Shown here: positions 43,726 to 49,389 of the stretch, in pieces
How positions within the stretch are numbered: the first letter of the stretch is position 1
Layout of the letters: the number at the start of each line of letters is the position of its first letter
DNA from: Sanguibacter keddieii DSM 10542
Lineage (GTDB): Bacteria; Actinomycetota; Actinomycetes; Actinomycetales; Cellulomonadaceae
Assembly: GCF_000024925.1 (NCBI RefSeq)
Contig: NC_013521.1
Span: forward strand, 3,782,001-3,846,000
Direction: 5' to 3'
Length of the DNA: 64,000 nt
The notes under the pieces: model-generated
Database searches by the model: none
Seen by the model: only the letters and a program-made list of their open reading frames with translations
Told to the model about the DNA's origin: nothing
Position numbers and translations under genes: made by a program

Positions 43726-43982
43726 CCCACCATTCTCCTCGCCCGTGCTGCGCCGGGAGCCCGTCCAGAGTGTGGGACTGAGCACAGCGAGGCGCGTCGT
43801 GCCGCCGTCGCACGTCACCGCGGCGACCGGGTCCCACCAGGCGCGGACTTCACCCGCTGAGGCTGCGCCCGCAGACGTCATGGGACGCGGCGGAGCCGGT
43901 CATGACTCCTGCAGGGACCTGTGCCCGCCCGTGAGGGCTGTGATAGGGAGGGACAGGCGTCGAGACGACGAGAAGAGACGAC

Positions 43983-46535
43983 GTGGACCAGGGACGTGGA
44001 CAGACCGACCGGCAGCCCCCAGGCGGGGTGGCGGGTGGGTCCGGCGCGCCCGGGCGCAGCGCGAGAGGCCGGCTCCGGGGTGGTCTGGGACTGCCGGCGG
44101 GCCGCACCCTCGACCGTCTGAGCGACGAGGAGCTCGTCGCCCGTGCCCGTGCGCACGCCGCCTCAGACACCTCCGCCCTCGACCCCTTCGACGTGCTGTG
44201 GCGTCGGCACGCCGACGCCGGCCGCAGGGCGGCCGTGGGCATCACCCGTGCGAGCGACCCTGACGACCTGGTTCAGGAGGCCTACCTGCGGATCTACTCC
44301 GCGGTGAGCCGCGGCAAGGGGCCCGACGGGCCGTTCCGGCCGTACCTGTACCAGTCGATCCGGAACATCGCAGCCACCTGGGCGGCGCGACCCCGCGACG
44401 ACAGCGTCGACCTGATGCCTGACCTCAGCGACGGCACCGACATCTCCGAGACGGTCCTCGAGGGCACCGTCACCGCGACGGCGTTCCGGTCGCTGCCCGC
44501 ACGCTGGCAGGAGGTCCTCTGGTACTCCGAGGTCGAAGGCCTGGAGCCTGCCGATATCGCGCCGATGCTCGCCCTCAGCCCGAGCGCCGTGTCCGCCCTC
44601 GCGTACCGGGCGCGCGAAGGTCTGCGACGCGCCTGGCTGCAGGCCCACGTGAGCTCGACGTCCCTGCCCGCAGGGTGCCGGTGGTCCGCCGAGCGGATGG
44701 GCGACGCCCACCGCGGCGCGCTCAGCGGGACCGCCCGGGCACGCTTCGACGAGCACGTCGACGGGTGCGCCCGGTGCACGATCGTCCTCGGTGAGGTCGA
44801 CGAGGTGTCCAAGCGCCTCGGGCTCGTGCTCGTGCCGCTGCTCGTCGGGATGCCGTGGGCTGCGTTCCAGACGATGACTGCCGCGGGTGCTGGTCCTGCC
44901 GTCGGGTCCGGCACTGCCGTGGGCGCGGGTGCTGCTGTGGGCTCTGACGCCGCTATGGACTCAGGCGCTGCTGCGGGCTCAGGCGCGGCCTCGTCGTCCG
45001 TCGGCTCGTCCCCCACGGCCGCCAGCCCCGTCCGTGCGCACGGCCGGAGCGCCGGCGCGACCTCTCGACGTGTCGGCTCCGGTGCCCTGGCCGTGATGGT
45101 GGTCGCCGGGCTGGCGACGGTCTCCGGTGCCGTGGTGCTCGCGTCGAACCTGGCCGGCGGGTCCGAGGTCGCTGCGGGGGCACCGCCGGCGCCCCCGAGC
45201 ACGACGTCGTCTCCGGCGTCCCCACCGGTCGGCGCGGTGCCGTCCGAGGAGGGGACCGTCGAGGAACCGGTCGGCGACCCGGAGGACTCCCCGACGGTCG
45301 AGGTGCCACCGGTCGCCCCCACGAGACCCTGGCGCGAGATCCCTGATCCCCCGTCGACTCCCGAGCCGCAGGAGCCGGCGGCCGTCCCCGCGCTCCCGAC
45401 CCTGCCGCCGCTCGCGCCCTACGAGCCCTACGAACCGGCCGCTCCGACGGATCCGACTGCTCCCTCCGAGCCGACGGACCCGACGGGCCCGTCGGAGCCG
45501 ACCGACCCCACGACCGAGGTGCCCGACGTGACAGGGCCCGCTGTGCCGACGCTCACCGGCCCGCCCGCTGGTGTGCCGCTGACGACCTTCCCGACGGTCT
45601 CCGGGGTCGCGGACCCCGGGGTCACCGTCGTGCTCACCACGGGCGACGGTGCGTCGTTGACGACCGCGGTCGCCGACGACGCGGGGGCGTGGTCGACACC
45701 GGTGTGCCCGGACGTCACGGCAGCACCCGGCGCCTGCCTGGCAGACGTCGCGACGCTCGTGGTCCAGGCGCACGCCCTCGACGAGAGCACCGGCCTGTCC
45801 TCCGAGGTGTCGGACGCGCTGGAGTGGGACTTCGAGAGGCCGACGCTCTCCGTGCCCGCCGAGGCCGGGCCGGTGGTGGCCGGGGACGTCTCGGTCCTGC
45901 TGGAGGGAGCCGCCGGGCAGTACGTCCAGGTGAGCATCGACGGTGTTCCGACGGGCCGCTACCACCTCATGCCCCAGTCCACCCCGCTCGTGTGGAGCGG
46001 CGCCACCCCCGGCGCGCACGCGCTGAGCGTCAGGTACGTGACGGTGACCGGGACGGGCGACGCTGTGCGCGTCACGGGCTTCGGTCCGAACCGCACGTCG
46101 ACCGTGGAGGTCGAGCCGCAGCCCGCCCCGCCGGGTGCGGTGCCACCCGAGGAGGAGCCGGCGGGAGACGCGGCGGCGCCGCGGCAGCCTGGGGACGGGA
46201 ACGCAGGAGACGTCTCCGCGGACGACACCGCCCTGGTCGGCGAGGCGACAGTCGGCGAGACAGGGGTCGGGGAAGCAGAGGGCGGCGAGAAAGCAGCAGG
46301 CGAGGCGACTGGTGGTGCACCAGGAGCGGCTGGTCTCGCGCCGCCCGACGAGGCGACAGCTGACGGAGCGACGGCAGGAGCCGTAGCCCGGGAGGGCTTG
46401 GACGACATCCCGACGGGATCGTCGGCCGACCCGCAGAAGTCCGCGCCCGCACCTGAGGTCAGTCCTGGGTCCGAGGCAGCGCCTGCACCAACGCCATCGG
46501 AACCACATGGTGAGACGTTCGGGGAAACCCGCTGA
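43983..46535 (+). CDS. ECF sigma factor fused to zinc-finger, transmembrane and extracellular Ig-like module
   Basis: An 850-residue fusion. Residues about 65-110 form sigma region 2 (SDPDDLVQEAYLRIYSAV) and about 165-220 region 4 (RSLPARWQEVLWYSEVEGLE). Next is HVDGCARC (His258-Cys262-Cys265), the HxxxCxxC zinc motif of anti-sigma factors. A hydrophobic stretch at about 280-295 and a clear transmembrane helix at about 367-388 follow, then Pro/Thr-rich repeats and beta-rich Ig-like segments (PTLTGPPAGVPL, TFPTVSGVADPGVTVVL). The tail is Glu/Gly/Ala-rich. The sigma factor, its inhibitor-like finger and an external domain are thus one chain. GTG start with weak GA-rich site. The stop overlaps the promoter of the next gene. 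Confidence 0.85.
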   Translation: MDQGRGQTDRQPPGGVAGGSGAPGRSARGRLRGGLGLPAGRTLDRLSDEELVARARAHAASDTSALDPFDVLWRRHADAGRRAAVGITRASDPDDLVQEAYLRIYSAVSRGKGPDGPFRPYLYQSIRNIAATWAARPRDDSVDLMPDLSDGTDISETVLEGTVTATAFRSLPARWQEVLWYSEVEGLEPADIAPMLALSPSAVSALAYRAREGLRRAWLQAHVSSTSLPAGCRWSAERMGDAHRGALSGTARARFDEHVDGCARCTIVLGEVDEVSKRLGLVLVPLLVGMPWAAFQTMTAAGAGPAVGSGTAVGAGAAVGSDAAMDSGAAAGSGAASSSVGSSPTAASPVRAHGRSAGATSRRVGSGALAVMVVAGLATVSGAVVLASNLAGGSEVAAGAPPAPPSTTSSPASPPVGAVPSEEGTVEEPVGDPEDSPTVEVPPVAPTRPWREIPDPPSTPEPQEPAAVPALPTLPPLAPYEPYEPAAPTDPTAPSEPTDPTGPSEPTDPTTEVPDVTGPAVPTLTGPPAGVPLTTFPTVSGVADPGVTVVLTTGDGASLTTAVADDAGAWSTPVCPDVTAAPGACLADVATLVVQAHALDESTGLSSEVSDALEWDFERPTLSVPAEAGPVVAGDVSVLLEGAAGQYVQVSIDGVPTGRYHLMPQSTPLVWSGATPGAHALSVRYVTVTGTGDAVRVTGFGPNRTSTVEVEPQPAPPGAVPPEEEPAGDAAAPRQPGDGNAGDVSADDTALVGEATVGETGVGEAEGGEKAAGEATGGAPGAAGLAPPDEATADGATAGAVAREGLDDIPTGSSADPQKSAPAPEVSPGSEAAPAPTPSEPHGETFGETR

Positions 46536-47468: not shown

Positions 47469-49389
47469 TCAGAACGGTGGTTCGTCGGGGAACTGAGACT
47501 GGTCTCCGTCCTCAGACGCCGCGGCGCACGCCGACAGCTCGACCTCATGTCGACGAGCCATCGCTCGTGCGGCGTGGTCGATGTAGGTGCGACCCGAGGG
47601 CGCGGTCCAGTGCACGACGTCGCCGGTGAAGGCAGCCTCGTCGTGCGCTGGAGCGCGATGTCGTGAGCCTGGGCGTGATGTGGGCCCGTCGGGTGCGTTG
47701 GTCGACTGCCTCGAGGGCGGATCTGTCGACGACCTCCCGGGTGGTCCGTGGTCGTCGACCGGCGGTCCGGTGCTGACGGTCCAGGCAGTGGTGTGCTTGA
47801 GGCGGTGGTGGTTGCGGCACAGGTGGATGAGGTTGTGGTGGTCGGTGGTTCCGCCGTGGGCCCAGTCCTTGACGTGGTCGATGTCGCAGCGTTGGGCTCT
47901 GCGTGAGCATCCGGGGAACCGGCAGGTCTCGTCGCGGATGCGCAGCCAGGACTTGAGGTCTGCGGGGACTGCGTAGCGGTCTCGTCCGACGGAGAGGACT
48001 GTCCCGGTCTCGGGGTGGGTCAAGATCCGCAGGAAGCTCGGTGCCTGGGCTGCGAGGCGTCGGGCGGTGTGTGCGTCGATGGGTCCGTGGCCTGCGAGAT
48101 CGCCGGGCTCCTCGGAGTGGCCGAGGAGCGTCATGACGGGGATGGTGACGGCGACCTGGGGCTTGATGCCACCGAGGGAGATGCGGTCGGCGACACCCGC
48201 GATCGACCGGCTGGGCTCGCCCGTGGTCTCGTTCGTGTCGGCGCCAGCCTGCGGTGCGTGTCGGTCGAGGCTGCTGTGCGCGGCCGCACCGGTGGTTCCG
48301 CTCGTGCCCGAGACCGTGGCCGCGCCGGTGGTTCCGTTCGTACGCGTGCCGGCGCCCGTGCTCGTGACAGCGGCGGTGGCGGTCGCCAGGGCCTGGCGGG
48401 CGTCGTCGTCGAGGAGCAGGTCGACGCTGGCGTCGGCGCGCAGCTGGGCCAGGGTGCGGGGCTCGTCGGGGCCTGGCGACCGCCGTCGCGATGTCGGTGA
48501 GGCGGTTGAAGATGGCTGTGGCCTGGACTGCGGGCAGGTACTGGTGCAGCCATGCCATGCCGTCCTGGCAGGGTTGGAGCTCTACGTGGCGCTCGACGGC
48601 TGCGACCTGGTGACGCTCGACCAACGGGCGGGAGTCACGGCGCTCCCGCTCGCGGCGCGCGACCCGTTTGAGGACTGCGACGGTGGTGGTGCGCGCCCTG
48701 TCGGACAGCAGCAGGTCCAGCTCTCGGCGGGAGGTCTCGTCCAGGCCCACCGTGGCACCCAGGACGGCCTCGGCATGCCGGTACGACACCTGCCCCTGGC
48801 TCAGTGCGGCCATGGTGGCGGGGTGCTCGTGGACCAAGGCCTGGGACTCCGCGACCAGCGCCGACGCCGACCCCTCGGGCAGTTGCAGCGCGCAGGCGAC
48901 CTCGGAGACCAACCACCGCTCAGCCAGCCGGTGGTCGGTCAGGGACGCCGCCTCCTCACCCCGGCCACGTGCCACGGCGTCGGTGGCAGCCACCGACCAG
49001 CGGCGCAGGTCGTCCACGCGCCGGGCGCACCGCGCCTGGGCAGCAGCAACCTCGGCGAACCCTGCCACGACCGCGTCGACCAGCTCGCCCTGACGGTGGT
49101 TCATCTGCGCGACCGTCATCGGCTCCAGCACCTCAGGCCACCCACCCTCAGGTGACGGTGACGGCGACGGTGGCTCCACGACGGATGCCGGCGACGGCGG
49201 TGGCAGGACGCCCGACGGCACGACATCCGACGGCACGACGCCCGACGGCACAGCATCCGACGGCACGACGCCCGACGGCACTGCGGGGGAGAGCGCAGAA
49301 GGGGAAGAAGGGGAGGCGGCACCGGCGGACGACCGCACAGCAGGGCCAACGCCGTGCGCTTCGTCAGGTTTCCGCCGTTCGGTCGACAT
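47469..49389 (-). pseudogene. DUF222/HNH endonuclease (13E12-type) with a frameshift
   Basis: The N-terminal DUF222 half (start at 49389; QMNHRQGELVDAVVAGFAEV, ASLTDHRLAERWLVSEVACA) and the C-terminal HNH half (CRFPGCSRRAQRCDIDHVKD, HNLIHLCRNHH) are in different frames. The shift falls at a CCCC run (plus-strand 48468-48471): deleting one C restores ARPDEPRTLAQLRADAS and a continuous protein of about 640 residues. The HNH catalytic and zinc residues are intact. This is a broken gene, a programmed shift or a sequencing error. Such proteins are common multicopy actinobacterial genes with unproven nuclease roles. A TAGAAT element (49396-49401) places the transcript start at the ATG, so it may be leaderless. 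Confidence 0.85.
49202..49276 (-). repeat. Five 15-bp coding repeats (Val-Pro-Ser-Gly/Asp)
   Basis: Five tandem 15-base units (about GGCACGACGCCCGAC) encode VPSGV/VPSDA repeats in the Pro-rich N-terminus of the HNH gene. They are contiguous and coding, not a CRISPR array. Confidence 0.88.

Follow-up and report, generated by a model that had tools for sequence, protein, structure and literature searches.

A conserved, membrane-tethered ECF sigma factor fused to a zinc anti-sigma domain and an Ig-like ectodomain in Sanguibacter keddieii

To relay a signal from outside the cell to RNA polymerase, most extracytoplasmic function (ECF) sigma factors depend on a partner protein. Class I (ASDI) anti-sigma factors such as ChrR, RsiW, and RskA are separate proteins that act in trans, described as a three-helix bundle and a helix 4 gripping sigma2 where RNA polymerase would bind (PMC7406223). 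Sigma factors with such a part in their own chain have also been described. SCO4117 of Streptomyces coelicolor, called the first member of the actinobacterial group ECF52 to be characterized, has an ECF sigma domain, a zinc finger, a membrane helix, a Pro-rich stretch, and an outer domain, the carbohydrate-binding module NPCBM, in one chain; release by proteolysis was proposed for ECF52 along with SCO4117 truncation data (PMC5826349). In ECF53 and ECF48, as published, a zinc domain and one or two membrane helices are fused at the C terminus, and activation by proteolysis is expected for them (PMC8999054, PMC10766802), as it is for ECF52 (PMC8999054). The one fused case in which release has been shown is IutY of Pseudomonas putida (ECF243), whose sigma factor and membrane-bound anti-sigma portion form a single polypeptide; its sigma domain is set free after trimming of the outer part by Prc and intramembrane cleavage by RseP (PMC5411451, PMC8999054). 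Here we analyze a protein of Sanguibacter keddieii DSM 10542 in which the whole route from outside signal to RNA polymerase would lie in one chain. Its gene is at 43983..46535 on the + strand of a 64,000-nucleotide stretch of contig NC_013521.1 (positions 3,782,001 to 3,846,000), called the window below; unless a locus or contig handle precedes them, coordinates are counted from its first base.

The gene is a single frame of 850 residues that starts with GTG at 43983 and has its stop codon inside 46535, the coordinates and length given by a first-pass annotation of the window. The start is backed by the closest orthologue, L065, which has a similar V-E-Q start and likewise begins with GTG. Pfam placed three domains above their cut-offs: sigma region 2 (Sigma70_r2, PF04542) at residues 73-131 (44199..44375, +; 28.7 bits versus 24), sigma region 4 (Sigma70_r4_2, PF08281) at residues 167-212 (44481..44618, +; 26.5 versus 25.7), and a zinc finger (zf-HC2, PF13490) at residues 232-265 (44676..44777, +; 28.5 versus 22.2). 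The NCBIfam sigma70-ECF model scored 50.4 bits (cut-off, 42.9), and the top PDB sequence match was an ECF SigE chain (E = 5.8e-07). The protein has regions 2 and 4 only, with a linker between them, as an ECF sigma factor does; both regions had been named by the first-pass annotation.

Behind the zinc finger comes a hydrophobic segment, residues 279-297 (44817..44873, +), and then an Ala/Gly/Ser-rich linker, residues 298-367 (44874..45083, +), with Arg/Lys right before a second hydrophobic segment, residues 368-386 (45084..45140, +). By composition, a Pro-rich stalk occupies residues ∼395 to 515 (45165..45527, +; 30% Pro over residues 395-520), followed by a region rich in Val and Thr. Two Ig-like beta-sandwiches are predicted at residues 512-716 (45516..46130, +), and the protein ends in an Ala/Gly/Pro/Glu-rich tail, residues 717-850 (46131..46532, +), which is missing from L065; that orthologue stops about where the tail starts. 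Sequence or a model suffices to show the order of the domains, the zinc ligands, both hydrophobic segments, and the Ig-like fold. In this order the protein resembles ECF52 as described for SCO4117, with zinc finger, membrane helix, and Pro-rich C-terminal extension in one chain, and, by description, ECF53, ECF48, and IutY; unlike it, IutY belongs to proteobacterial cell-surface signaling with an outer-membrane receptor (PMC5411451).

The zinc site is conserved among relatives. C232, H258, C262, and C265 were invariant in all 31 rows of alignment A1; in the 79-row alignment A3, the His and the last two Cys residues were invariant in 79 of 79 rows, and the first Cys was present in at least 90%. 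HxxxCxxC was found in all 80 named loci taken as the best 80 of at least 209 relatives. The first-pass annotation had pointed out this motif (H258, C262, C265), to which C232 can be added as the likely fourth ligand, and Hx3Cx2C with a further ligand upstream is the pattern of a class I zinc anti-sigma (ZAS) domain. As in ChrR, RsiW, and RskA, the motif, the helices, and a candidate helix 4 behind them come in the expected order (PMC7406223), but in S. keddieii all of this is in the same chain as the sigma factor.

The single transmembrane helix of the first-pass annotation fits residues 368-386; a second strong hydrophobic segment, residues 279-297, had been missed. Mean Kyte-Doolittle values are 2.38 and 1.62, respectively, and with two such segments the topology is not self-evident, so a single span had to be argued by comparison. 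Among proteins with both segments, net charge was higher before the second segment than after it in 100 of 123 (7 were reversed and 16 were ties). In 119 of 122 proteins the first segment was less suited than the second to span the membrane (mean, 3.53 versus 0.14, as a simple sum without position weights on an insertion-energy scale), and it contains Pro in 102 of the 122. When 138 proteins were examined for Cys beyond the membrane helix, the number was even in 71 of the 79 having any, as disulphides outside the cell would give; the S. keddieii protein has the pair Cys 575/585, matched by 541/551 in L065. Because the protein sets are partly redundant (L072 and L114, for example, are one protein) and related by descent, these counts serve as a direction and not as probabilities. 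Residues 279-297 sit where helix 4 of a class I anti-sigma factor is expected and look more like that helix than like a membrane span. The comparison therefore supports residues 368-386 as the single span, N-in/C-out, with the ectodomain outside.

An AlphaFold model of residues 39-312 had a mean pLDDT of 83.7 and a pTM of 0.53. Compared singly with VIA, sigma2 matched region 2 of E. coli sigmaE (4lup_C; Z 11.7, root mean square deviation [rmsd] 3.1 over 91 residues) and sigma4 matched region 4 of SigL (3hug_G; Z 10.0, rmsd 2.5 over 74), although by VIA's own note Z values of 10 to 12 are not decisive for helical domains. The modeled sigma2-sigma4 pair was 10.8 to 14.0 Å from anti-sigma-bound sigma factors (1or7, 6in7, 8z6g, 6dxo, and 4nqw) and 18.8 to 24 Å from RNA-polymerase-bound ECF sigma factors; relative domain placement is weak at this pTM, and an rmsd of 11 to 14 Å is no match to a real complex. 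The compact placement thus points to a closed form, without proof. Since the VIA match list mainly covers model residues 5-188, the zinc part was barely probed by this comparison, and the model does not decide whether the first hydrophobic segment, drawn as two short helices with pLDDT of ∼57 to 69, packs on sigma2.

The ectodomain model (m87cfbf284894; residues 512-716) was all beta, with a pLDDT of 88.4 and a pTM of 0.79, and was built on just seven sequences. It shows two Ig-like sandwiches after the Pro-rich stalk, in agreement with the Ig-like outer domain proposed earlier. The best PDB matches were Ig-like repeats of the adhesins SiiE (2yn3_D, E = 2.2e-07) and Bap (7dm0_A, E = 1.8e-06). 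Bap gave the highest Z of the outer domain, a middling 9.8 (rmsd 10.5 over 153 residues), and one sandwich alone matched CD22 (9ro7_D) with Z 8.1 and rmsd 2.0 over 79. At E = 0.001 no Pfam domain was found in the outer part; below the cut-offs were Big_6 (19.4 versus 27.6 bits) and CE2_N, the N-terminal domain of carbohydrate esterase 2 (13.8 versus 27.9). The protein therefore differs from SCO4117, with its NPCBM module (PMC5826349), in having a pair of Ig-like domains outside and lacking any Pfam carbohydrate module above cut-off. On this sequence evidence, a carbohydrate-binding role for the Ig-like domains is possible.

The arrangement is conserved. With the sigma-zinc part as the query, 46 of 59 genomes, that of S. 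keddieii included, had matches at E ≤ 0.001 and 38 had matches at E ≤ 1e-30; the other eight had only weak matches (4.3e-4 to 2.3e-8), apparently to ordinary sigma factors. Three genomes of the genus have orthologues that keep the whole arrangement (G001, 71% identity over the core; G003 and G005, 64% each). Two others, G002 and G004, have a longer paralogue alone, in frames of 1501 and 1200 residues. This longer paralogue (frames of ∼1200 to 1800 residues) is present in most genomes of the family and was unmatched in the S. keddieii genome in the 59-genome search. In a class-wide sample, 147 of 394 genomes and 39 of 138 genera had matches at E ≤ 1e-20, a few just barely; such proteins are thus widespread in the Actinomycetes. 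The best 80 named loci came from Microbacteriaceae, Promicromonosporaceae, Demequina, Nocardiopsis, Pseudonocardiaceae, Kribbella, Nocardioides, and others, and 72 of them show a hydrophobic helix further along the chain and a tail of 60 residues or more. Six of the remaining eight end at a contig edge, and two (L126 and L141) are short and lack the later helix. With the sigma-zinc part matched in 38 of 59 genomes and the arrangement present in 72 of 80 loci, this is no chance fusion.

In contrast to the constant sigma-zinc part, the outer domains differ between homologues, as expected for a sensor. Among 75 C-terminal parts Pfam found Big_6 in 9, DUF11 in 5, NPCBM_assoc in 4, Big_13 and CARDB in 3 each, cadherin-like domains, and others; 18 other full proteins had NPCBM in 9 and a ricin-type lectin in 5. 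The NPCBM proteins, which by their tails we took as L195 to L203, come from large genomes of a single genus and share the published layout of SCO4117. The label "SCO4117-like" used below rests on architecture and on NPCBM in 9 of 18 members.

A careful tree of 48 rows was made after 47 of 95 rows had been left out, among them the outgroup, soluble paralogues (discussed below), and fused rows on long branches (for instance, L077 and L118). The S. keddieii protein grouped with its three genus orthologues (support, 99/96); four rows of Cellulomonadaceae/Promicromonosporaceae type joined next (100/99), and this half of the tree (100/99) also has Microbacteriaceae rows. The other half holds the SCO4117-like rows, the giant paralogues, and rows of Pseudonocardiaceae, Nocardioides, and Nocardiopsis. 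A clade of the S. keddieii protein with seven Streptomyces-like rows, including L208 with its different-looking tail, was rejected (p-AU 0.0004). The first-pass suggestion that the protein is ECF52-like therefore stands for its architecture, but the protein lies in another, well-supported clade than the SCO4117-like rows: it would work like ECF52 and ECF53 but is not filed as ECF52. A quick tree of all 95 rows had been set aside: it placed two of its six outgroup sigma factors within the family, with very long branches, and gave long branches to the soluble paralogues as well.

Taken together, a membrane-tethered fused sigma factor that is real, conserved, and of a design already known from related bacteria is well supported. 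The first-pass reading of sigma factor, zinc inhibitor, membrane anchor, and outer sensor in one protein, with the sigma part freed by proteolysis or through signaling across the membrane, fits both the domain evidence and the proposal published for ECF48, ECF52, and ECF53 (PMC8999054, PMC5826349). We infer self-inhibition, cutting, a signal, and target genes, and we consider it probable that the protein is self-inhibited and tethered until regulated proteolysis releases the sigma factor. While the cell is at rest, residues 232 to ∼300, forming the zinc anti-sigma part with the first hydrophobic segment as its helix 4, would fold back on the chain's own sigma2 and sigma4 and block both regions from RNA polymerase. 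Helix 368-386 would tether the chain to the inner side of the membrane, with the stalk and the two Ig-like domains reaching into the cell wall. Cutting would be triggered by a change outside, such as a ligand, a partner, or strain on the wall, and would begin with the outer part; a second cut would be made within the membrane by an M50-type protease, after which the anti-sigma part would be removed. The freed sigma domain would then drive its own set of promoters, perhaps including that of its own gene.

Several observations weigh against this reading, in addition to the weak domain placement noted above and the kinship among the proteins counted. Lys and Arg alone were more numerous before the membrane helix than after it in only 47 of 123 proteins, fewer in 24, and equal in 52. 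The linkers between the two segments contain 204 Lys/Arg versus 118 Asp/Glu in total, a count that leans on L213, whose very basic linker gives 33 of the 204. The S. keddieii genome has two M50 loci, but so common is M50 (found in 14 of 14 control genomes) that its presence here says little. When nine neighbor proteins were compared with 18 loci (tblastn, 1e-8), the only matches were those of the ABC-transporter protein, at four loci; a cruder comparison of neighborhoods from gene calls yielded a single match and failed to recover even the target gene. The surroundings thus give no hint of the signal or the targets.

Release by cutting appears the most likely mode in our analysis, and conformational release is its main rival. 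In the latter, the whole tethered chain would stay intact, movement through the membrane helix would open the anti-sigma grip, and the sigma domain would work at the membrane. A reversible opening is possible when sigma factor and inhibitor share a chain, no cleavage site was shown in this analysis, and conformational change has been named beside proteolysis (PMC5826349). Nevertheless, we think activation without cutting unlikely: IutY, the characterized fused protein, is cut (PMC5411451), and a tethered sigma factor would need to meet its promoters at the membrane. The argument for a single span bears on another alternative, a hairpin in which both segments cross the membrane, so that the Ala/Gly/Ser linker would be the only exposed part and the stalk and Ig-like domains would lie within the cell. 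The first segment does exceed 1.6 on the Kyte-Doolittle scale in the S. keddieii protein and in many homologues, and one to two transmembrane helices are stated for ECF48, ECF52, and ECF53 (PMC8999054). Yet its much poorer insertion value and frequent Pro, the charge across the second helix, the even Cys counts, and the Pro-rich stalk with Ig or lectin domains, which suit the outside, make the hairpin quite improbable.

Two further explanations concern the cytoplasmic half. Conservation of every zinc ligand, and the finding that redox sensing is frequent among soluble zinc anti-sigma factors (PMC7406223), would fit a zinc site that is itself a cytoplasmic sensor of redox state or zinc, with the outer part merely an anchor. 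However, the motif is reported in about half of the membrane-bound class I anti-sigma factors and is structural in RsiW (PMC7406223), and the outer domains are diverse and well folded; we give this explanation even less weight than the hairpin. Finally, the sigma factor could have decayed and no longer direct transcription; three soluble paralogues encoded by this genome have decayed, and the region scores of the fused protein are modest. Such decay of the fused protein we find very hard to credit: both sigma regions score above the Pfam cut-offs, the residues invariant among relatives are kept, and three orthologues of the genus, at 64 to 71% identity, retain the whole arrangement. Regulated proteolysis of a self-inhibited chain remains our preferred reading, and the small, confidently modeled outer part and the free-standing gene make this protein a handy test of ectodomain control over sigma release.

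A pattern search found a candidate promoter or operator, TTCACCCG-N19-CGTCA, at 43849..43880 (+), 102 bases before the GTG. With the spacing relaxed to TTCACCCG-N18..21-CGTCA, this was the single match in the S. keddieii genome. The pattern occurs once in G005, upstream of the orthologue, and twice in G003, one match being upstream of the orthologue, at a similar distance; the second G003 match is upstream of a gene that, by eye, we take to be sepF. There was no match in G001, and the backwards control had no match in the four genus genomes. The element has CGT but lacks AAC at the usual distance, these being the −10 and −35 hallmarks, respectively, of ECF promoters (PMC8103513). The element could serve as an operator or as a promoter of the gene itself. 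Among 121 upstream stretches the strict pattern was found in 3, all of the same genus. Autoregulation as a rule of the family was rejected, because a relaxed pattern was found in 11 of 121 stretches versus 18 in the reverse-complement control and so was not enriched; in the upstream stretch of L065, the best match was no better than shuffles (94 of 100 shuffles were as good).

The S. keddieii genome (G000) has three soluble paralogues that keep the zinc ligands and lack a hydrophobic segment: L004 (G000:C1:944263-944958, +), L083 (G000:C1:3712553-3713335, −), and L084 (G000:C1:680157-680789, +). Aligned to the fused protein, these three and a G001 copy keep C, H, C, and C, and the stretch from the end of region 2 leading to region 4 is deleted; Pfam found no sigma region in the soluble paralogues above its cut-off. 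At E ≤ 1e-60, soluble paralogues were found in all four genomes of the genus that have the fused gene (three each in G000 and G001, one each in G003 and G005) and neither in G002 and G004, which lack that gene, nor in the other 53 of the 59 genomes. One G001 copy immediately follows the fused gene and has the same orientation. Short frames that adjoin a fused gene on the same strand are a sigma-degenerate zinc protein at L065:8684-9574 (+) and, in three further genomes, frames with region 4 and the zinc motif but no region 2 at L076:7172-7690 (+), L078:8865-9413 (+), and L079:9044-9532 (+).

The soluble paralogues, with no working sigma2 left, might act in trans on the released sigma domain, either as inhibitors that recapture it or as decoys that relieve it, and so form a small network headed by the tethered sigma factor. 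If this were true, it would add a regulatory layer, and in the literature that we searched we found no description of such trans-acting paralogues. We regard the idea as tentative and rather unlikely. The four carriers are one clade for the fused gene in the 48-row tree, so the co-occurrence may be one event; in addition, weaker short-frame relatives exist outside the genus, and the three S. keddieii copies are far from the fused gene.

In Pfam searches the genes flanking the S. keddieii gene encode DUF1684 and GNAT proteins on one side and a flavin reductase on the other, so there is no adjacent separate anti-sigma gene, as had been noted at the outset. Where S. keddieii has the flavin reductase gene, two genomes of the genus have an ordinary ECF sigma frame without the zinc motif directly downstream of the fused gene (L066:9229-10116, +; L067:5877-6482, −). 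Elsewhere in the window, at 47469-49389 (−), the DUF222 and HNH parts of what appears to be a single gene are in two overlapping frames (614 and 221 residues), as if frameshifted. Outside it, three sigma-70-type matches lie within ∼4.5 kb on one strand at G000:C1:3650273-3654702.

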